Source of the DNA: an uncultured Caryophanales bacterium
GTDB lineage: Bacteria > Bacillota_I > Bacilli_A > RF39 > UBA660
NCBI GenBank assembly: GCA_937897245.1
Contig: CALCBO010000070.1
Span: forward strand, 1 to 9,978
Length of the DNA stretch: 9,978 nucleotides
Direction: 5' to 3'
The notes beneath the pieces are model-generated. The model had not been told where the DNA came from. It was given only the letters and a program-made list of their open reading frames with translations, and searched no databases. Positions 1 to 9,978 of this stretch are shown one piece after another. The position numbers were made by a program, and so were the translations under genes. Within the stretch, counting starts at the first letter, position 1, and every line of letters starts with the position of its first letter.

Positions 1-53
1 TAAATTAAACAAAACAATAAAACATCAATTAAATCACTTTTGAAAAGGAGAAA
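1..53. repeat. 53-bp direct repeat, copy 1 (leader sequence)
   Basis: Identical base for base to 9926-9978. It is a purine- and A-rich untranslated leader that ends in the ribosome binding site AAAAGGAG (43-50) of the small gene starting at 58. At the other end of the window the same leader follows a promoter at 9881-9909. This copy is either the wrap-around of a circular molecule or one member of a repeated leader family. Confidence 0.95.
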
Positions 54-57
54 AACA

Positions 58-180
58 ATGAAAAGAACGACTAGAAAAGTTTTAGCAATTGCAACCAAAG
101 GATTTAAAACCAAGAACCTTTATAATTGGGAACAGGTTAGAGTTTATCAGAATAGAGGTTGGAAGATTGAAATGGCTTGA
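58..180 (+). CDS. Small basic protein, 40 residues, unknown function
   Basis: I do not recognise this protein. It begins MKRTTRKVLAIATKG and ends GWKIEMA, is strongly basic, and has no membrane segment or obvious motif. I accept it as a gene because the ATG has a good Shine-Dalgarno sequence, AAAAGGAG at 43-50, 7 bases upstream, and because the leader before it is the 53-base repeat that follows a promoter at the other end of the window. A short basic protein first in an early phage transcript could be a nucleic-acid-binding or host-takeover factor, but that is only inference from position and charge. The gene ends 23 bases before a hammerhead ribozyme, so its transcript would be cut just downstream of its stop codon. 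Confidence 0.6.
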   Translation: MKRTTRKVLAIATKGFKTKNLYNWEQVRVYQNRGWKIEMA

Positions 181-203: not shown

Positions 204-262
204 GCCACACTGATGAGTCGTTGAAAATTACGACGAAACACCTCGAAAGAGGTGTCTGTGGT
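204..262 (+). ncRNA. Type I hammerhead ribozyme, copy 1
   Basis: The complete hammerhead core is present. C3-A9 is CUGAUGA at 210-216. Stem II is GUCGU 217-221 paired with ACGAC 230-234, closing loop UGAAAAUU. G12-A15.1 is GAAA at 235-238. Stem III is 238-244 paired with 249-255, seven unbroken pairs capped by a GAAA tetraloop. The cleavage triplet is GUC at 254-256. Stem I is open: GCCACA 204-209 pairs with UGUGGU 257-262, so this is the type I topology. Self-cleavage is predicted between 256 and 257. That would leave a 2',3'-cyclic phosphate upstream and a 5'-hydroxyl on the RNA carrying the next gene, whose ribosome binding site lies about 30 bases downstream. The A-rich bases outside stem I could form the loop that docks with loop II in natural fast hammerheads (inference). 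Confidence 0.96.
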
Positions 263-273
263 AAATAAATTTA

Positions 274-295
274 ATCACCTTTGAAAAGGAGAAAA
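274..295 (+). repeat. Partial second copy of the leader repeat with ribosome binding site
   Basis: This stretch matches 33-54 of the 53-base leader repeat with one T-to-C change (22 positions, 21 identical) and ends in the same AAAAGGAG ribosome binding site, 8 bases before the ATG at 300. In both copies the segment before the Shine-Dalgarno bases can fold into a tiny hairpin (CCUU-UGAA-AAGG here), and the base change turns a U-G pair into a C-G pair. This makes it a recurrent translation-initiation leader rather than chance similarity. Confidence 0.65.
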
Positions 296-299
296 TGAA

Positions 300-593
300 A
301 TGACTAAAAGAGTATGGACTGAAGAAGAAATCAAAGTTTTGATTCAGGAAAATGATAAGGTTTTGTATGGAGCTTTGAAAAAGCTTTACAATGAACAAAC
401 AAAGGATGAGCAGCAATCCGGACAAACAAAACATTATAATGGTGTTGGATTCAATGGAGCAGATTCAAAGTTTCTGTCAAGTGTTTCTGAATTCCTTATC
501 AAAAAAGGTTTTTTGACGGAAAAGCAGAAGTATTGTGTAAGGAAAAGGTTGATCAAATATAACAGGCAATTAACGAGGCTTGCAAACGAATAA
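300..593 (+). CDS. Small phage protein with NGVGFNGAD motif, 97 residues
   Basis: The protein is basic and mostly helical. Its centre (about residues 30-60) contains LYNEQTKDEQ, then NGVGFNGADSKFLSS, then LTEKQKYCVRKRLIKYNRQL near the C-terminus. From memory, similar segments occur in small phage and plasmid proteins and as a terminal module of some helicase-like proteins. I cannot verify that here and assign no function. The start is ATG at 300 with AAGGAG at 286-291. A two-codon ATG-AAA-TGA at 295 overlaps it and is not a rival start. The gene lies exactly between two hammerhead ribozymes: its leader begins at the first cleavage site and the second ribozyme begins 4 bases after its stop. 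It would therefore be released as a 398-nt monocistronic RNA. Confidence 0.85.
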   Translation: MTKRVWTEEEIKVLIQENDKVLYGALKKLYNEQTKDEQQSGQTKHYNGVGFNGADSKFLSSVSEFLIKKGFLTEKQKYCVRKRLIKYNRQLTRLANE

Positions 594-597
594 TAAA

Positions 598-660
598 GCC
601 GCCCTGATGAGTCGCTGAAAATTGCGACGAAACTCCCCTCTTTTTGAGGGGGTCGGTGGT
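598..660 (+). ncRNA. Type I hammerhead ribozyme, copy 2
   Basis: Core CUGAUGA is at 604-610. Stem II is GUCGC 611-615 paired with GCGAC 624-628, with the same UGAAAAUU loop as copy 1. GAAA is at 629-632. Stem III is 632-640 with 646-653, one bulged U at 634 and a UUUUU loop. The cleavage triplet is GUC at 652-654. Open stem I is GCCGCC 598-603 with GGUGGU 655-660, six pairs including two G-U. Predicted cleavage is between 654 and 655, just upstream of the leader and AAGGAGG site (688-694) of the gene at 706. Compared with copy 1, the inner pair of stem II changes from U-A to C-G and stems I and III differ while still pairing. This covariation shows that the RNA fold is under selection. Confidence 0.96.
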
Positions 661-705
661 AATAGTTCCACATAACATTAATTAGTCAAGGAGGACATTA
701 AATTT

Positions 706-1173
706 ATGAAGTACACAAAGAATCAGCTTGAAAGCATGAAGGCAAAGGAAATTCAGAGGGTTGCTTCCAAGGAGTTTGGAATCAAAGGGGCCTATGATAT
801 GAGGAAGGGAGAATGCATAGACAGAATCCTTGAATATCAGAGGAATTTCCAGAAAGCGGAAAGGGAAGCTGAAAGAAAGATTAAGGAAGCTGAGAAAGCA
901 GAATCAAAAGAGGCCTATCTGGAAGGGGCACCGCTTGGAACACTGGTCGCTTTTAAGGTCCCTGATGCAGCAATTGTGAGGCCTGGGGAAAAGAAGGTTA
1001 AATCTGCAAAAATTGTTGGCCGGAATGTTTCGAAGAAGAAGTTGCGTTTACAAACAGAGTATGATGCATTTTATATTGTTCCGTTTGAGAATGTTCTTTG
1101 GGTCAAAACAGGGTCCCGTTGGCCTAGGAGTATTTATAATTTACTCAAGGGAGTAACAAAGCTTGAAGGATAA
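706..1173 (+). CDS. SAP/Rho-N-like domain protein with charged coiled coil, 155 residues
   Basis: Three parts are visible. Residues about 2-45 look like a small helix-extended-loop-helix nucleic-acid-binding module of the SAP/HeH/Rho-N type (QLESMKAKEIQRVASKEFGI, then a K-containing loop and a second helix). Residues about 46-72 are a charged helix rich in E, K, A and R, probably a coiled coil. The C-terminal half (about 75-150) is beta-rich, with LGTLVAFKVPDAA and DAFYIVPFENVLWVKTG, and could be an SH3-like barrel. No enzyme motif is seen. The ATG has a perfect AAGGAGG at 688-694 with an 11-base spacer. It is the first gene downstream of the second hammerhead and heads the replication operon, which together with the SAP-like module suggests a DNA- or RNA-binding accessory role. 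That role is inference. Confidence 0.8.
   Translation: MKYTKNQLESMKAKEIQRVASKEFGIKGAYDMRKGECIDRILEYQRNFQKAEREAERKIKEAEKAESKEAYLEGAPLGTLVAFKVPDAAIVRPGEKKVKSAKIVGRNVSKKKLRLQTEYDAFYIVPFENVLWVKTGSRWPRSIYNLLKGVTKLEG
1147..1153 (+). promoter_or_regulatory. Ribosome binding site supporting a TTG start
   Basis: AAGGGAG lies 9 bases upstream of TTG at 1163 and inside the end of the preceding gene. No ATG is available in that frame until about 1268, well into the predicted N-terminal helix, so this site decides the TTG start. Confidence 0.6.
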
Positions 1174-3946: not shown

Positions 3947-4659
3947 ATATTACTCATGCTGTTGAAGAGAATGTTTCTGGGGATATGCTTGAAGCTATTT
4001 TTAGAAGACAGAATGAATTGATGATCAAATATCACGATATTGAGCTTAGGTCTGGATTGATGCAAACAGAGGATTGCCCTGTTAATCTGGATGATAAGCG
4101 AGGGCAGGCAAGAATTAAAGATTATTCTTGGAGAGTGACTGAAGAACTTGGAGAAGCTCTTGATGCAAGAATGCAGGATGATCTTCCTCACTTCAAAGAG
4201 GAATTGATTGATGGATTGCATTTTCTTACAGAACTCTCAATTCTTTCTGGTATTGGTGTTGATAACATCATTAGAAATGGAATTGATTACTGGGAGGAAA
4301 GAGAAGGAAATAATTGGGCTTCTGGTGTTCTTTGGGATTCTGTTATTGGTGAGGCTTATGATTTGGATAAGCTGAAAGGGTTGATTCACTTAGCTGGCTA
4401 TTTGTATGATGATTTTGATCTTGAGGAAAGAATTTCCAGTTTTGTTATGCATATTGGAATGACTTGCAATTGTTTGAAGAATAAGCCTTGGAAACAAAGC
4501 AACATGATAACAGATAAGGAAGCTTTCTATAAATCCCTTGGTGCAACATGGATTTCCTATATTTCCATTTTGATGTTTTTGATGGATGCTGAAGAAATTT
4601 GTGATATATACTTGAGAAAATCCCAGGTTAATAAATTTAGGCAGCGTAGTAATTACTAA
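3943..4659 (+). CDS. Dimeric dUTPase-family all-alpha NTP pyrophosphatase (dUTPase or dCTPase), 238 residues
   Basis: The protein is all-helical with the paired acidic metal-binding motifs of the dimeric dUTPase/MazG superfamily: EELGE at 67-71 and EELID at 86-90. The C-terminal segments KPWKQSNMITDKEAFY and VNKFRQRSNY match the late conserved parts of dimeric dUTPases. It would convert dUTP to dUMP and pyrophosphate, keeping uracil out of DNA and supplying dUMP. T4 gp56, which hydrolyses both dCTP and dUTP, is of this same general fold. Since the ThyA-family enzyme two genes downstream looks dCMP-specific, a dCTPase/dUTPase activity is plausible here. The gene starts in an ATGA overlap with the kinase and ends in a TAATG overlap with the next gene, so the three are translationally coupled. 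Confidence 0.88.
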   Translation: MNITHAVEENVSGDMLEAIFRRQNELMIKYHDIELRSGLMQTEDCPVNLDDKRGQARIKDYSWRVTEELGEALDARMQDDLPHFKEELIDGLHFLTELSILSGIGVDNIIRNGIDYWEEREGNNWASGVLWDSVIGEAYDLDKLKGLIHLAGYLYDDFDLEERISSFVMHIGMTCNCLKNKPWKQSNMITDKEAFYKSLGATWISYISILMFLMDAEEICDIYLRKSQVNKFRQRSNY

Positions 4660-5414
4660 TGCTAGTACGGAAATATAAAGACTTTGATGATTTGTTTTTA
4701 AACCTTACCAAGGAAATACTCGAGAATCCCAATGAATTGATTGATTATTCATCTGGGATTCTCGGTTATATTGATAACATGGTGCTTGCTACAAAATCCT
4801 GGGATTGCACCTTGGACCTTGGTGATTTTGGGTATGCTAAAAACAAATGGAACCAATTGATGAGAACATACATAGATTATGATCAGCTTGTTAAATTCCG
4901 AGAACGTATCAAAAATATGTCTGGTCTTAGCTTTACATATTATTTTAAACAAAAGAAAATTAACAATGGTAGTTGTTTAATTGCAGTTGTTTTAAGCAGG
5001 CAGGATAGGAAGGGAAAGTGGACTAAAGTAAATGTTCTTTACAGAACCACGGAAATCCAAAGAAGGTTTGCAGCTGACCTTGTAATGATTCACCATTTTA
5101 TAGAGGAACTCCCTAAGGAAATTTGTGATATACATAGGGTAATTTTTTACATGCCTCAATCATATATTTCAGCCATGGTTATAAATGGATATTATGATTA
5201 TTTTGGGGTGCCTCGGGAAAATCTGGATGATTCTAACCCTTGGATAAAATCCTTGATTAGTGTCCACAAAAGAAGTTTTGTTCCTGGGTCAAGAATAACA
5301 ACATACCAAAGCATGGCCAGGATGCAAAAGTTAGCTTTAGGGTTAACCTCTTATGATAGTCTAGATGTAAATGATTTCGGTATAGATAAACACTTCCAAG
5401 GAGGAAATAAGTAA
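4659..5414 (+). CDS. Divergent thymidylate-synthase-superfamily-like protein A, 251 residues
   Basis: This protein is clearly paralogous to the one at 6463-7140. Both share KDxDD at the N-terminus, DC(T/S)LDL followed by FGY, a YYFK segment, a Cys-Leu-Ile segment, R-x-T-E, RFAADL, and a collinear C-terminus. By position the conserved C106, R129, T130, E132 and D140 fit the thymidylate synthase pattern: catalytic Cys, then R166-S167-x-D169, then residue 177 eight further on, which is Asp here. I therefore propose a divergent thymidylate synthase/dCMP hydroxymethylase fold. The other conserved TS blocks are too weak to confirm this by eye. It sits directly before the real ThyA-family gene, whose ribosome binding site is inside this gene, so both are made together. 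It could be an inactive partner subunit or a separate base-modifying enzyme. Confidence 0.85.
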   Translation: MLVRKYKDFDDLFLNLTKEILENPNELIDYSSGILGYIDNMVLATKSWDCTLDLGDFGYAKNKWNQLMRTYIDYDQLVKFRERIKNMSGLSFTYYFKQKKINNGSCLIAVVLSRQDRKGKWTKVNVLYRTTEIQRRFAADLVMIHHFIEELPKEICDIHRVIFYMPQSYISAMVINGYYDYFGVPRENLDDSNPWIKSLISVHKRSFVPGSRITTYQSMARMQKLALGLTSYDSLDVNDFGIDKHFQGGNK

Positions 5415-6101
5415 ATGAGAATTTACACAAATTGGCAGGAGTGCTATGAAGAAACAAAACGGGACCTTGCAGAAATGGGGATTGATGTTTTCCCGAAAAC
5501 AATGCAAGACAAAAATATTGAGGGTAATTTGGAGTATGCAACAAAGGAGTTGCAGAATTATTCCTATTGTTTGCTTAATGTTAAATCATCCGAATATACC
5601 GGAGTTACTCAGCCGTGGGCGGATGCTGAATTTTTGGAAAGGGTAAACCCCTCCGGAAATATTAATCCCGGGGATGCTTGGAAGTTAAGGCCGGATATTT
5701 GGAATGAATTCATGCATGATGGTAAAATGGCTTATTCCTATAATGAGAGGTTTTTCTTTAATGATCAGTTAAACAAAATTATTGATAGATTAAAGAATGA
5801 TCATGATTCAAGACAGCTTTGGTTGTCTGTATGGAATCCAGCTGAGGACCCCGATAAGCTTGGGGGCATTTCAAGAGTACCTTGCTCCCTTGGGTATAAT
5901 TTCCAGTTTAGGGATGGTAAGTTAAATATCCATTATGTAATGAGGTCCTGTGATTTCAAAACACACTTTGTAAATGATAGTTACCTTGCAGCTAAGCTTC
6001 TTGAGTATGTTGCTGATAAAGCAGAACTTCCAACTGGCAGTCTTACTCATACAATGTTTTCCTTGCATATTTACCGAAAAGATGTTCAGGGTGTTTTCTA
6101 A
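5415..6101 (+). CDS. ThyA-family enzyme, probable dCMP hydroxymethylase (thymidylate synthase fold), 228 residues
   Basis: The thymidylate synthase fold is clear: E45 in KELQNYSY (general-acid region), DSRQLWLSVWNP, catalytic C157 in RVPCSLGYNF, then RDGKLN, MRSCD at 176-180 and SLHIY with H218 and Y220. Spacing from Cys to Arg (20), from Asp180 to the specificity residue (8), and on to His/Tyr (30 and 32) is identical to E. coli ThyA. At the specificity position, Asn177 in ThyA, this protein has D188 in FVND. T4 dCMP hydroxymethylase has FRND there, and Asn-to-Asp changes thymidylate synthase to prefer dCMP. The residue after the catalytic Cys is Ser, not the His of ThyA. Only 8 residues follow Y220, so the C-terminus is shorter than in ThyA or T4 gp42. 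The product is probably 5-hydroxymethyl- or 5-methyl-dCMP. Homology searches will probably label it thymidylate synthase. Confidence 0.9.
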   Translation: MRIYTNWQECYEETKRDLAEMGIDVFPKTMQDKNIEGNLEYATKELQNYSYCLLNVKSSEYTGVTQPWADAEFLERVNPSGNINPGDAWKLRPDIWNEFMHDGKMAYSYNERFFFNDQLNKIIDRLKNDHDSRQLWLSVWNPAEDPDKLGGISRVPCSLGYNFQFRDGKLNIHYVMRSCDFKTHFVNDSYLAAKLLEYVADKAELPTGSLTHTMFSLHIYRKDVQGVF

Positions 6102-6103
6102 GG

Positions 6104-6132
6104 TTGACAAAATATTTTATTGATGTTATAAT
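6104..6132 (+). promoter_or_regulatory. Perfect consensus sigma-A/sigma-70 promoter
   Basis: TTGACA (6104-6109) and TATAAT (6127-6132) are separated by exactly 17 bases, the full housekeeping consensus. It begins 2 bases after the stop of the ThyA-family gene and would start transcription near 6139, about 38 bases before the ATG at 6178. It should be recognised by unmodified host RNA polymerase, so the next gene is probably expressed immediately after infection and strongly. Confidence 0.93.
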
Positions 6133-6177
6133 GATTGAACAACCAAAAATATTCAAATCTTCAGAAGGAGGAACACC

Positions 6178-6366
6178 ATGAATAAGAAATTTAAAGAATG
6201 TAAGGCAATCATTGCAGAGGCACTTAAAAGACTGGAAGAAGCTGGTGATGGAGAATTTGAAGTTCCGGAAATTACAAAAGAACTTGTTTACAGTATCTTT
6301 GGTGAAAATCTGGATGTTGAAAATTCTGTTGAAGAAGTAATGTGGATGTTTATGATGGAACTGTAA
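6178..6366 (+). CDS. Small acidic protein, 62 residues, unknown function
   Basis: The protein is largely helical and strongly acidic (13 Glu and 2 Asp against about 7 Lys/Arg). It has one Cys near the N-terminus and a C-terminal run, EEVMWMFMMEL, rich in Met and aromatic residues. There is no recognised domain, signal peptide or transmembrane helix. It has its own perfect promoter, a near-ideal AGAAGGAGG ribosome binding site a few bases before the ATG, and a long hairpin 47 bases after the stop, so it is a self-contained, highly expressed cassette inserted in the replication operon. Small acidic early phage proteins are often inhibitors or DNA mimics aimed at host enzymes or defences. That is a hypothesis from size, charge and expression signals only. 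Confidence 0.85.
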   Translation: MNKKFKECKAIIAEALKRLEEAGDGEFEVPEITKELVYSIFGENLDVENSVEEVMWMFMMEL

Positions 6367-6373
6367 ATTAACA

Positions 6374-6399
6374 AAATAATGTTGTGAAATAATGTTGTG
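6374..6399. repeat. 13-bp perfect tandem repeat, two copies
   Basis: AAATAATGTTGTG occurs twice back to back (6374-6386 and 6387-6399) in the non-coding stretch after the 62-residue gene, followed by AATGAATG. It may be a binding site or a slippage product. It lies just upstream of the hairpin at 6413-6450. Confidence 0.85.
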
Positions 6400-6412
6400 A
6401 ATGAATGAAATG

Positions 6413-6450
6413 CAAAGCCACCTAGATAGGAAAATATTTAGGTGGCTTTG
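6413..6450 (+). terminator. Long hairpin, weak or partial intrinsic terminator
   Basis: Sixteen continuous pairs (6413-6428 with 6435-6450, one G-U) close a GGAAAA loop, with the central GCCACC/GGTGGC block forming the strong part. Only a short, interrupted T run follows (the TTT inside the stem at 6447-6449, then GTT), so termination is probably partial. It would end most transcripts of the 62-residue gene while letting some polymerase continue into the paralogue and DNA polymerase genes. The start codon at 6463 lies just 12 bases after the stem. Confidence 0.65.
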
Positions 6451-6462
6451 TTGGTGGTAAAA

Positions 6463-7140
6463 ATGTATTTGAAAGCAAAGGATTTAGATGATGCTTGGAG
6501 AAAAATAAATGTTGGCTGCATGACTGGAAAGGTCCCTTGTAAATCAATTTCCGTTTCCAGACATTTTATAGTTGACGGTGAGATAATTTGCTCTGTTGAA
6601 AATAAGGATTGTAGTTTGGACTTGAATAACTTTGGTTATCAGGATAGAAAATTGCAATTACTTTATAATAAGTATTTTGATCAGGAGCAGTGGGATATTT
6701 TCAATGATTTGGTTTTATCTGGAAAGAATGCAATATATTACTTTAAATCATCCAAGGTTTATGCAGGTAAGCCAAAAGCTAATTGTTTAATATGTTTGAT
6801 GTATGATAACAGAAATGATGAATATACTATAGTATGGAGGCAAACAGAACTTCTTGCCAGATTTGCAGCTGACCTTGTTTTTTTGTCAAAAATTCTTTTG
6901 GATAAAAGGTTGAGGTTGGTGATTTTAGGAGCCTATCAATATATTGTTGTCATATATGGAATTTTTAAAATGAATGGGGTTAGGTTTAAAAAACCTAAAG
7001 ATGAAAAATATGCCAAGGCTGTTGTAATGTCTAAGGAATTTTTCCCCGATTATGTTGATTTTGAATTTTATGAAAGGTGGCAACCTATCAAGTTGGTGCA
7101 GAAAAGCTATAAACGATATTTGAAAAGAAAAGAGAATTGA
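6463..7140 (+). CDS. Divergent thymidylate-synthase-superfamily-like protein B, 225 residues
   Basis: This is a paralogue of the protein at 4659-5414. I chose ATG at 6463 because its N-terminus, MYLKAKDLDDAW, then aligns with MLVRKYKDFDDLF of the paralogue. The in-frame GTG at 6442 would lie inside the hairpin and add residues with no counterpart. Conserved blocks are DCSLDLNNFGY, IYYFK, NCLICL with C108, then R126, T128 and E129 of WRQTE, and RFAADL with D137. These fit the Cys / Arg-x-x-Asp / residue-177 pattern of thymidylate synthases, with Asp at the 177 position, although the fold assignment remains unproven. The ribosome binding site is poor (GGTGG). The gene ends 1 base before the DNA polymerase start, so polymerase translation may depend on it. 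Confidence 0.85.
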   Translation: MYLKAKDLDDAWRKINVGCMTGKVPCKSISVSRHFIVDGEIICSVENKDCSLDLNNFGYQDRKLQLLYNKYFDQEQWDIFNDLVLSGKNAIYYFKSSKVYAGKPKANCLICLMYDNRNDEYTIVWRQTELLARFAADLVFLSKILLDKRLRLVILGAYQYIVVIYGIFKMNGVRFKKPKDEKYAKAVVMSKEFFPDYVDFEFYERWQPIKLVQKSYKRYLKRKEN

Positions 7141-7141
7141 T

Positions 7142-9856
7142 ATGGATTTACATAGACATGATGAATATAGTTCTTTTGATGGATTTGGAAAAGCTAAGGA
7201 ATTGGCAGAAATAGCATCTGAACTTGGTCATACCGCTTTAGGGATTTCAAATCATGGAAACACAAATGGCTTGGTTCAGCACTATATGGGATGTAAGGAG
7301 GCGGGGATAAAACCAGTTCTTGGGTGTGAGGGGTATTTTTTGCCGAAGTATGTTCCACAACATAGAGGCTATCATTTGTGTTTGTTTGCAAAGAATCATC
7401 AAGGATATAGAAATTTAAATGAATTGCAATTTGAAGGGGAAAAACAAAAATACTATAATCCAATTTGGACATTTAAACTTTTAGAAAAATATCATGATGG
7501 TTTAATATGTACTTCAGCTTGTATTGCAAGTTATTCAAGTCAGTGTTTAAAAGCAGGCAGGAAGGATTTAGCTGTTAAATACTTGAAGAAAATGGTTGAT
7601 ATTTTTGGAGATGATTTTTATATTGAGATTCAGCCATATAAAATATCAGAGAAAGGCCTTCAGGAAAAGGTTAATGTTGAATTGATCAATTTAGCAGATG
7701 AACTTGGAATAAAGTGCATTTTAACATCTGATTCTCATAGGGGTAGAAAAGAGGATTTTCCTACTTACTTAAAAATGCATGAAATAGCTGGCCATGATTT
7801 GGAACATATAGAGGGAACATATAAGGAAAGATACATGCCATCGGATGAGGAGCTATTTAAAAGGTTCTGCAAAATGCATTCAAAGGACATTGATGATTTT
7901 AGGTCTCGAGGCATGGAAATGATTTTTAATCTCAAGGAAATAGAAGATAAAGTTGAAGATGATATTTTTAAGGATTTGAAGGAAACATTGCCGGTTTATT
8001 CGGATGATTCAATGGGCCTTTTGAAAAAGAAAATTAAGGCGTTTTTAGTTGATCATGGCAAATGGAATAAGAAATATATTTCCAGAATAAAGCAGGAGCT
8101 GCATGTAATAAAAACCTTAGGATTTGAAGACTACTTTTTGATAGTTGCCGATTATGTAAACTGGGCAAAATCCCAGGATATTTCTGTTGGCCCAGGAAGG
8201 GGTTCTGCATGTAATTGTTTGGTTGCTTACTGTCTTGGTATTACTGCTGTTGACAGTTTATTGTTTGGCTTGGATTTTAGAAGGTTCCTGAGAGAAGATA
8301 AAAAGAAAATGCCTGATATTGATGTAGACTTTGAAACATCAAGAAGATATGATGTTATTCGTTATGTTGTGGATAAATACAAAGGCAAAACTGCAAGGAT
8401 TGCTTCTTATGGTTTGTATAAAGTTGATAATCTAATAAATGATCTTGCAAAGGTTTGTGGTTTACCAACGGATAAAAGTGTTGATGAAGAAGAAATAAAA
8501 GCAAACAAACAGACAATTGCTGCAATTAAAACCTTGGTTAATATTTATATTGATGATGATGGTAATTTAGCTGCTCCGGAATTACTTAAAAATCCAGAAG
8601 CAAAAACATTTAATTCAATGTATGATCACATAATAACCCATTTTACAAAGTTATATAAAAAGGTCCGCTTTATCGGTACCCATGCAGCTGGTGTTGCTGT
8701 TACTGGTGGAAACATCCTTGATTATACTTCCTTAAGGATTGATAAATCTGGGGATATATATACAAACTATGACTTGAATGATATGGAGAATATTAATGTT
8801 ATTAAGTTTGATATGTTAGGCCTCAAGACGGAAGAGGAAATTCATGAACTTAGAAGAGCAACTGGTGTTGTTGTTGATTATGACACTATAGTTGATGATC
8901 AAAAAGTTTTAGAAAGATTTGGTTCCGGAGATACAAAGGCAATTTTCCAGTTTGATAAAAAATCTGTAAGGGATATTTTGACGGGAATTAAATGTGATTG
9001 TTTCAATGATGTTGTAGCTGCCAATGCAATGAACCGCCCAGGACCATTATCACTAAAAATGCCTCAGGCCTATGCTGAAAATAAATTTAATATTGAAGAA
9101 GCAAAATTATCCCCATACTATGACTACACAAAAGAAAGTTATGGAACAATAATCTATCAGGAACAGATTCAGCAGATTTGTGTTAATGTTGGAAATATGA
9201 CTTGGGGAGACGCCGATAAAGTAATGAAAATGATTGGCGGACAATCTCAGTCGGAGGATGCAAGGGCGGAATTTGAAAGAACCAAAAAGGAAATGCATGA
9301 TAAGTTTGTAGCTGGTGCAGTTTCAAATGGTTATAGTGAATCCGAGGCAGAACAGATTTTTAACATGGTTTTGGTCTATTCATTTAATAAGGGCCATGCA
9401 ACAGGTTATTCTTTGATCTCGGTTGAGGAGATGTATTATAAAGTTTATCATCCAACTGAGTTTTGGTATGCTAAAATAAAATATGCTCCATCTGATTCTG
9501 ATTATGAAAAGTATTGTGTTTATGCTAGTAAGGATGATGTAGTTATATTCCTGCCTCATTGTAATTTATCTACTGAGAGGATGAGAATTAGAAATGAATC
9601 TGGGGAGTTATGTTTACAAAGAGGGATTTCTGAAATAAAGGGAATTGGGGAAAAGGCTGCAAAATATATTGTTGATGAAAGACGCAAAAATGGAATCTTT
9701 ACTTCTTATGATGATTTTGTTGATAGGTGCAAATCTAGAGTGGTTACTTCCAGAGTTATAAGTATTCTCAAAGAATATGGTGCACTTGAATTTAATAAGA
9801 AGGTTTATATTTCTAGAGTTACCAAATATAATTCTGCATTATATTCCAGAAATTGA
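7142..9856 (+). CDS. dnaE: DNA polymerase III alpha subunit, DnaE type with PHP domain, 904 residues
   Basis: This is the replicative C-family polymerase. The N-terminal PHP domain keeps all nine expected metal ligands: H4, H6, D13, H38, E63, H78, C127, D197 and H199, so an intrinsic 3'-5' exonuclease is likely. The palm has VGPGRGSACNC, the catalytic Asp pair D394 and D396 in PDIDVDF, and D557 in KFDMLGLKT. Further conserved blocks are GTHAAGVAVTGG, NRPGPL, YQEQIQQI, VMKMIGGQS and FNKGHATGYS. A helix-hairpin-helix motif, GIGEKAAKYI, is followed by about 55 residues. It is shorter than cellular DnaE (about 1,100-1,160) because the C-terminal OB-fold and tau-binding domains are absent. There is no inserted DnaQ-like exonuclease, so it is not PolC. 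The ATG lies 1 base after the preceding stop, with a weak ribosome binding site. Confidence 0.97.
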   Translation: MDLHRHDEYSSFDGFGKAKELAEIASELGHTALGISNHGNTNGLVQHYMGCKEAGIKPVLGCEGYFLPKYVPQHRGYHLCLFAKNHQGYRNLNELQFEGEKQKYYNPIWTFKLLEKYHDGLICTSACIASYSSQCLKAGRKDLAVKYLKKMVDIFGDDFYIEIQPYKISEKGLQEKVNVELINLADELGIKCILTSDSHRGRKEDFPTYLKMHEIAGHDLEHIEGTYKERYMPSDEELFKRFCKMHSKDIDDFRSRGMEMIFNLKEIEDKVEDDIFKDLKETLPVYSDDSMGLLKKKIKAFLVDHGKWNKKYISRIKQELHVIKTLGFEDYFLIVADYVNWAKSQDISVGPGRGSACNCLVAYCLGITAVDSLLFGLDFRRFLREDKKKMPDIDVDFETSRRYDVIRYVVDKYKGKTARIASYGLYKVDNLINDLAKVCGLPTDKSVDEEEIKANKQTIAAIKTLVNIYIDDDGNLAAPELLKNPEAKTFNSMYDHIITHFTKLYKKVRFIGTHAAGVAVTGGNILDYTSLRIDKSGDIYTNYDLNDMENINVIKFDMLGLKTEEEIHELRRATGVVVDYDTIVDDQKVLERFGSGDTKAIFQFDKKSVRDILTGIKCDCFNDVVAANAMNRPGPLSLKMPQAYAENKFNIEEAKLSPYYDYTKESYGTIIYQEQIQQICVNVGNMTWGDADKVMKMIGGQSQSEDARAEFERTKKEMHDKFVAGAVSNGYSESEAEQIFNMVLVYSFNKGHATGYSLISVEEMYYKVYHPTEFWYAKIKYAPSDSDYEKYCVYASKDDVVIFLPHCNLSTERMRIRNESGELCLQRGISEIKGIGEKAAKYIVDERRKNGIFTSYDDFVDRCKSRVVTSRVISILKEYGALEFNKKVYISRVTKYNSALYSRN

Positions 9857-9880: not shown

Positions 9881-9909
9881 TTTACAATACTTTTGAATTA
9901 TGGTACAAT
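9881..9909 (+). promoter_or_regulatory. Sigma-A/sigma-70 type promoter before the leader repeat
   Basis: TTTACA (9881-9886) and TACAAT (9904-9909) are 17 bases apart, one mismatch each from consensus. They lie 24 bases after the polymerase stop. Transcription would start near 9916 and run into the 53-base leader. In a circular molecule this promoter drives the 40-residue gene, the hammerheads and the operon. In a linear genome it drives another gene with the same leader. Confidence 0.85.
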
Positions 9910-9925
9910 AAAATTCCAAATTAAA

Positions 9926-9978
9926 TAAATTAAACAAAACAATAAAACATCAATTAAATCACTTTTGAAAAGGAGAAA
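9926..9978. repeat. 53-bp direct repeat, copy 2 (leader sequence at window end)
   Basis: Identical to 1-53, ending within the ribosome binding site region before any start codon. It follows the promoter at 9881-9909 and so would be the 5' untranslated leader of the next transcript. Confidence 0.95.

Follow-up and report, generated by a model that had tools for sequence, protein, structure and literature searches.

What two self-cleaving ribozymes might do on either side of a single phage gene is the question raised by this locus. The window, by which we mean the whole stretch of 9,978 nt that was analysed, is a phage contig coding for a primase, SSB-like, thymidylate-kinase-like and dUTPase/MazG-like proteins and a DnaE polymerase (assigned with Pfam and PHROG), and two hammerheads in it, HHR1 and HHR2, enclose a gene of 97 codons (Table 1). 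A preliminary description of this DNA had proposed that the pair excises one RNA which may then be closed into a circle. The reading that we consider probable is a different one, in which the hammerheads would process the transcript between cistrons into linear single-gene mRNAs, some of them with a hairpin at the 5' end.

Our parsing agrees with the preliminary description on the existence of two type I hammerheads on the same strand, on their coordinates and on their predicted cut sites. In HHR1, stem I pairs 204-209 with 257-262, stem II 217-221 with 230-234 and stem III 238-244 with 249-255, around a core made of CUGAUGA (210-216), GAA (235-237) and C256. The corresponding stems of HHR2 are 598-603 with 655-660, 611-615 with 624-628 and a bulged stem III within 632-653 (U634 is the bulge in the favoured fold), and its core consists of CUGAUGA (604-610), GAA (629-631) and C654. 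Both copies present the type I core (CUGANGA, GAA and UH), with stems II and III closed and stem I open. A strict descriptor of types I, II and III found exactly these two matches in the window, and five matches in 100 simulated windows generated by a second-order Markov chain. A covariance model built on 50 phage hammerheads scored HHR1 at 79.1 bits (E 8.5e-23) and HHR2 at 70.2 bits (E 7.1e-20), values that are inflated because both are among the 50 training rows. In the alignment of these 50 sequences, 94.9% of the cells are paired, versus 31-42% with slid partners, and 15 of the 18 pairs are altered on both sides by compensatory changes. The Rfam model RAGATH-1 (RF03152), which is independent of ours, gave 35.1 bits (E 0.007) for HHR1 and 24.0 bits (E 2) for HHR2, neither of which reaches its gathering score of 56.3 bits, and the HHR2 match taken alone is no better than chance. 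Equilibrium folds of the precursor depend on the segment folded: the stem I probability of HHR1 is 0.74-0.98 in 181-300 but 0.01 in 150-330 and in 1-720, and that of HHR2 varies from 0.07 to 0.75 with the chosen ends. Because these folds disagree, co-transcriptional folding would matter.

Table 1. Features of the window that bear on the processing of its transcript.
Feature	Position	Strand	Basis or remark
Leader of the 40-codon ORF	1..57	+	First 53 nt occur exactly again at 9926-9978
40-codon ORF, 5' of HHR1	58..180	+	ORF list
HHR1, type I hammerhead	204..262	+	Predicted cut 256/257; descriptor, covariance model, Rfam, folding
5' end hairpin of the HHR1 product, GUGGU 258-262 with AUCAC 274-278	257..278	+	Weak
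AAGGAG ribosome binding site of the 97-codon gene	286..291	+	Sequence
97-codon gene (ATG300 to TAA593), phrog_21015	300..593	+	All-helical model
HHR2, type I hammerhead	598..660	+	Predicted cut 654/655; descriptor, covariance model, Rfam, folding
5' hairpin of the HHR2 product, GUGG 656-659 with CCAC 668-671	656..671	+	-5.1 kcal/mol
Next gene, 3' of HHR2	706..1173	+	N-terminal Rho_N-like domain
Promoter-like TTTACA-17-TACAAT, TG before the second hexamer	9881..9909	+	5' of the contig-end copy of the leader

The bracketed gene reads as complete, and it lies with its ribosome binding site inside the would-be excised RNA, as had been claimed. Its product is predicted to be made of helices throughout (mean pLDDT of 86.6), has no match in Pfam and belongs by its PHROG match to phrog_21015, a family of unknown function. 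The model of the protein found no match in the PDB at E 0.001 or better, and in BFVD two matches at this threshold, both to uncharacterised phage proteins. A first search of IMG/VR gave 11 relatives of the gene, and 285 protein matches were obtained among 287 candidates. The family phrog_21015 is also present in cultured phages, e.g., in Xanthomonas phage XacN1 at about 39% identity.

The two closest relatives, L001 and L002, match the window at 91-92% over the 9.7 kb that run from the gene to DnaE, and the gene itself is 97% identical in the closest one. By a scan of the whole 52-kb record with the model, the single hammerhead of L001 is HHR2, located 3' of the gene. L002 presents two hammerheads 9.7 kb apart, HHR2 and an HHR1-type copy after DnaE. 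The records of L008 and L010 have one hammerhead each, about 8 kb from the gene, and the other seven of the 11 have none at E 0.001; some of the records are fragments. By sequence comparison, HHR2 is conserved beside this gene in three phages (the window, L001 and L002), and the 398-nt single-gene unit is found in the window only, among the 11 gene relatives scanned. Further away, the cultured Agathobaculum phage AB434P2, which has the nearest DnaE among the records listed (58%), presents no convincing hammerhead in the 16.3 of its 44.3 kb that were searched (best model match of 10.8 bits, E 0.14). When HHR2 was compared with the INPHARED phages, the matches were only partial and came from 12 records (best E of 0.04), three of them being the uncultured phages cr131_1, cr272_1 and cr53_1.

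The contig itself calls for care, since an exact repeat of 53 nt is present at both ends (1-53 = 9926-9978). The first leader is 90-91% identical to the leader that follows DnaE in L001 and L002, and most of 1-295 belongs, by homology, after DnaE. It follows that the contig would be a circle of 9925 bp, a segment of a linear phage in which the leader is duplicated, or the result of an assembly joint; it may be a circle holding the phage replication module only, a collapsed leader repeat or a chimera. That the contig is a chimera or a collapsed repeat, so that HHR1, the gene and HHR2 were never part of one molecule, we regard as unlikely. The end repeat would agree with it, as would the absence from IMG/VR of the window's joint as an exact 30-mer and the fact that in the relatives the HHR1-type sequence either stands after DnaE (L002) or is missing (L001), the gene there following another gene. 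Against this, the sequence before the gene differs from that of both relatives and does not switch at a long identical word, and the data fit equally well with a circle of 9.9 kb that truly exists or with a true loss, by deletion, of the gene upstream. The caveat bears on the pairing of HHR1 with the gene and not on HHR2. L005, a record of 9926 nt, was considered as a sister circle of the window and rejected as a coincidence: it has no end repeat, and the other proteins of the window are unmatched in it.

Several other features of the window deserve mention. At 6104-6132, upstream of a 62-codon gene and DnaE, there is a promoter sequence that matches the consensus perfectly (TTGACA-17-TATAAT), its second hexamer being preceded by TG. 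A paralogous pair of proteins is encoded at 4659-5414 and 6463-7140 (251 and about 225 amino acids), with about 30% identity over the matched part. Finally, 6411-6459 can form a strong hairpin, CAAAGCCACC...GGTGGCTTTG, followed by GTTGGTGGTAA, whose flanks resemble the stem I strands of HHR1 and HHR2 without a hammerhead core, and which is 96-98% identical in L001 and L002.

Comparing the order of elements after DnaE suggests how the hammerheads may travel. L001 has a leader followed by geneC, and L002 a leader, geneB (read by eye), a hammerhead, a copy of the leader and geneC, the latter being 96% identical between the two phages. The window presents a leader of the same type, the 40-codon ORF, HHR1, a second leader and the 97-codon gene, and its HHR1 with leader (196-295) is 88% identical to 19963-20061 of L002. 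The 40-codon ORF has no match in Pfam, PHROG or L002, and geneC has none in the window. The stretch 19598-20065 of L002, set against 19602-19665 of L001, has the appearance of a cassette inserted between a promoter leader and a shared downstream gene. On the one locus compared, gene-hammerhead-leader looks like a unit that is gained and lost. Hammerhead and leader might also mark the boundary of a DNA cassette, through which small genes come and go by recombination between similar leaders, with the ribozyme shielding the next gene from the insert. We hold this explanation to be possible rather than probable, and it is compatible with processing. The exchange between L001 and L002 and the likeness of HHR1 with its leader in two different contexts favour it, whereas the comparison concerns a single locus with geneB read by eye, and a cassette alone would leave unexplained both the placement of hammerheads next to stop codons and the hairpins of their products, to which we now turn.

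To place the locus among its kind, 313 type I hammerheads were parsed in 230 fetched loci, near-identical loci being retained. Scanning with patterns yielded two overlapping sets of 23 and 115 viral stretches, at least 120 for a second pattern, and 53 matches in genome contigs, about 40 of them labelled Clostridia or clostridial taxa. When 119 whole viral records were scanned with the model, 27 had at least two matches, a number which includes some type III hammerheads and some near-identical phages and to which a subset chosen partly for such records contributes; without that subset, the count is 13 of 95. Adjacent hammerheads on the same strand and at most 2500 nt apart form 79 pairs in 45 loci, of which 58 are at most 900 nt apart. 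Since 53 of these 58 enclose an ORF of 40 or more codons, pairs that bracket a gene are ordinary. L120 has nine hammerheads which delimit eight consecutive intervals of gene size, one of them with an ORF that extends a few nucleotides into the next ribozyme. In the same locus (5978-9610), stop codons stand at or within a few nucleotides of stem I, and seven of the nine hammerheads are followed by an almost unchanged repeat of the leader.

Over the whole census, when ORFs of at least 40 codons on the same strand are considered, the nearest stop falls between -6 and +12 nt from stem I for 204 of the 313 hammerheads (21 for random positions), a start codon led by a Shine-Dalgarno (SD)-like sequence follows within 70 nt of the cut for 228 (random, 85), and only 15 lie inside an ORF of at least 300 nt (random, 149). 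This placement grammar, as read from sequence, consists of stop codon, ribozyme, leader and start codon, and fits cutting between genes.

Does the same material support a circle? Cuts at the two predicted sites would free 398 nt, and the preliminary description had noted that 598-603 can pair with 257-262 in five of six positions. The hybrid parses in this way (G.U, C-G, C-G, G.U, C-G), the sixth position being a C.U mismatch directly beside the cut. In equilibrium folds of the linear 398-nt fragment, the closing helix has a probability of 0.38-0.40 and the hairpin of the HHR1 product one of 0.06-0.08. The hybrid duplex amounts to -5.9 kcal/mol, less stable than the native stems (-7.1 and -8.4 kcal/mol). 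The mismatched pair 1.1 is formed in 64 of 68 rows, a count with some circularity in it, since the hammerheads behind the model had been picked with 1.1 paired; the other four rows are in L013, L026 and L114 (all three called type III) and in L015 (not called).

Compatible stem I strands are widespread. At least four of the five inner pairs can form in 78% of the 79 adjacent pairs and in 81% of the 253 other combinations within loci, versus 14% between loci. Near-complementarity is the rule whenever two hammerheads share a locus, and the pair of the window is not singled out by it. With five of five inner pairs, the figures are 36 of 79 adjacent pairs (0.456) versus 0.379 for the 253 other combinations within loci, and this similarity indicates no clear tuning for circles. 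Stem I is, on its own account, largely phage-specific, the strands being swappable (5/5) among the hammerheads of one locus in 38-46% of cases versus 3% between loci. Cross-compatibility of stem I was rejected as evidence for circles, because all three stems are over-similar within a record: the excess of likeness is 0.36-0.49 at stem I positions, 0.29 for stem II and 0.34 for stem III (computed on 61 of the 68 rows, of which 56 come from 19 records that have at least two), so that shared descent explains most of the compatibility. Diverged copies in L029, L040, L050, L063, L097, L098 and L099 have at most 0.40 of stem I in common.

A circular single-gene mRNA, made from the excised RNA by self-ligation through the hybrid hammerhead or by a host ligase, is therefore the least probable of the readings that we weighed, and we consider it quite improbable. 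The five pairs, the closing helix, the energy of the duplex and the frequency of fully compatible adjacent pairs are in its favour. They are opposed by the mismatch at 1.1, the lower stability of the hybrid, the slight advantage of adjacent pairs over other combinations of the same locus and the absence of the unit from the two closest relatives. In addition, circular or spliced products of similar arrays were sought and none was detected, as far as the accessible part of that study goes (Perreault 2011, PMC3088659), and the 5' ends of type I products tend, above controls, to refold as hairpins which would compete with the closure of stem I. By sequence, two type I hammerheads around a whole gene are present, and the closing helix lends the proposed self-ligation a measure of thermodynamic support, lessened by the mismatch next to the cut; circularisation is possible and not favoured.

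These hairpins were studied in two sets of hammerheads. The rule required at least four Watson-Crick pairs starting from product nucleotide 1 or 2, with a loop of up to 14 nt. In the first set, it was satisfied in 35 of 142 clusters, versus 10.6 +/- 2.7 with swapped leaders (maximum of 19 over 200 trials) and 5.9 +/- 2.1 with shuffled ones; 27 of the 35 hairpins begin at nucleotide 1 and 21 have loops of 3-4 nt. The mean pairing probability of nucleotides 1-5 was 0.514 (shuffled, 0.407; swapped, 0.381), and it was at least 0.7 in 56 of 142 clusters, versus 15-17% in controls. The second set, obtained with another search pattern and after removal of relatives of the first, gave 39 of 129 versus 16.4 +/- 3.1 and 16.2 +/- 3.6 in controls, and a smaller effect on the pairing probability (0.428 versus 0.359 with swapped leaders at p 0.008 and versus 0.370 with shuffled ones at p 0.017). 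The shuffles made for each set preserve base composition only. With both sets pooled and one hammerhead counted per locus, the rule held for 51.8 of 201, versus 16.9 with another leader and 17.7 with dinucleotide shuffles; reversing, complementing or reverse-complementing the hexamer gave 16.4, 15.5 and 14.5. A mirror test on the upstream strand (0.260 versus 0.292) and a control block (0.209 versus 0.213) had no effect. It is new, and reproducible in these sequence comparisons, that the 5' end predicted to be freed can re-pair with its own leader more often than in controls.

The hairpin is not general: 107 of 142 and 90 of 129 type I hammerheads do not satisfy the rule. The excess also becomes smaller when the rule is tightened or relaxed. 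Longer helices of six or more pairs occur in 6 of 142 (swapped, 0.6) in the first set and show no excess in the second (1 of 129 versus 0.7); allowing G.U pairs, there are 15 of 142 versus 7.9 swapped and 8.4 shuffled (maximum of 16). The hairpin is present in 28 of 100 products with a following SD sequence and in 7 of 42 without. Five multi-hammerhead loci, taken from the top of the second-set list, were compared: in L268 the pairing is kept by differing arms (CGGU/ACCG, CGGAA/UUCCG and CGGGAA/UUCCCG), in L203 GUGG/CCAC is kept in four of six products with differing loops, and the hairpin is present in one of four products of L288 and in a minority of those of L232. On the minus strand of L203 (8690-13186), the 5' end of two of the six products would pair across the ribosome binding site and not with a nearby copy (GUGAC..GUCAC and UGUGAAU..AUUCACA), a possible translational switch. 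In the window, modelling gives a product hairpin that is clear for HHR2, with a probability of 0.81-0.95 and arms common to L001 and L002, and weak for HHR1, where it reaches -2.5 kcal/mol in segments of 24-30 nt and gives way to another pairing once at least 50 nt are folded.

Hammerheads of types II and III have a closed stem I, and because of this closure their downstream product has a 5' hairpin by construction, whereas type I leaves none. For many type I hammerheads of phages, the leader copy may be a built-in second partner of stem I that supplies what the other types leave automatically, making of the ribozyme one-way scissors which also cap the product with a 5' hairpin; we give this idea an even chance.

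Our preferred reading, intercistronic processing, can then be put as follows. HHR1 and HHR2 would be processing sites of a polycistronic phage transcript covering the replication module, probably an early one. Each is preceded by the stop codon of one gene and followed by the ribosome binding site of another, and every gene would leave as its own linear mRNA. The upstream piece would end in the fold of stems II and III and carry a 2',3'-cyclic phosphate. The downstream one would begin with a 5'-hydroxyl, 43 nt (HHR1) or 51 nt (HHR2) ahead of the start codon. Among phage type I hammerheads, a sizeable minority would let this new 5' end, formerly the 3' strand of stem I, re-pair with the stem I 5' strand in a copy close by, which gives a terminal hairpin and makes the cut hard to reverse; the hairpin could shield the message against decay by 5' exonucleases. 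Such an effect has a parallel in B. subtilis, in which, from the accessible part of the source, a 5' hairpin can stabilise an mRNA (PMC3997798). The ribozyme structures, their covariation, the placement grammar and the excess of hairpins are read directly from sequence, whereas we infer cleavage inside cells, a stabilising effect of the hairpin and a working RNA that is linear and not circular; the RNase J setting is likewise presumed, since the hosts are themselves inferred.

The cut could instead serve decay or timing, either because the leader hairpin rivals stem I in the uncut RNA and acts as an off switch or because the 5'-hydroxyl product is destroyed. One strand is indeed common to both helices, translation up to the stop codon beside stem I could gate folding, and RNase J1 degrades the 5'-hydroxyl product of the glmS ribozyme, according to the part of the source available (PMC3997798). 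We think this explanation unlikely, considering that SD-led start codons so often follow shortly after the cut, as expected of an mRNA that is used. If intercistronic processing is correct, phages need no protein to split a polycistronic message into single-gene mRNAs that are protected.

Compared with known systems, and as far as the accessible parts of the sources go, the locus differs from retrozymes, in which two hammerheads also bracket a unit of a few hundred nucleotides (PMC6155905, PMC4918200) but are of type III, within LTRs, and give a non-coding circular RNA (PMC6155905). Here they are of type I with a 97-codon gene inside, and the repeats at the ends of the unit are the 42-nt hammerhead parts themselves, so that the likeness put forward in the preliminary description fails on hammerhead type and coding content. 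The glmS ribozyme likewise cleaves itself 5' of a gene and gives an mRNA with a 5'-hydroxyl, but depends on a metabolite and leads to decay by RNase J1 (PMC3997798), whereas here there is no known dependence on a ligand and a protecting hairpin is possible. The Theta (HDV-like) ribozymes are also small self-cleaving ribozymes in genomes of gut phages, of another class and tied to tRNA-based recoding (PMC10879173). RAGATH-1 has the same open stem I and closed stems II and III, and both copies match its model end to end, although below its gathering score.

The closest parallel, again from the part of the paper available, is that of the prophage arrays in which clustered hammerheads of types I to III flank individual genes and for which single-gene mRNAs were proposed (Perreault 2011, PMC3088659). 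Three such arrays cleaved in vitro, that of A. tumefaciens also in E. coli, and circular or spliced products were raised and not detected (Perreault 2011, PMC3088659). The window presents the same arrangement, with two same-strand hammerheads around a gene and phage replication genes on the contig; the phage and the gene are new here, and the grammar of stop codon and leader and the 5' hairpin of type I products were not found in that part of the paper. Available parts of later sources describe the role of prokaryotic hammerheads as an open question (PMC6155905) and the reason for their association with genes as unknown (PMC10085705). Among the open-access literature matches listed, there is no report of a product 5' hairpin for type I hammerheads. 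Gene-flanking phage hammerheads are thus already in print and the product hairpin is, as far as searched, the new lead; together with the placement grammar, this refolding turns the suggestion that they perhaps process mRNAs into a specific and cheaply testable proposal.
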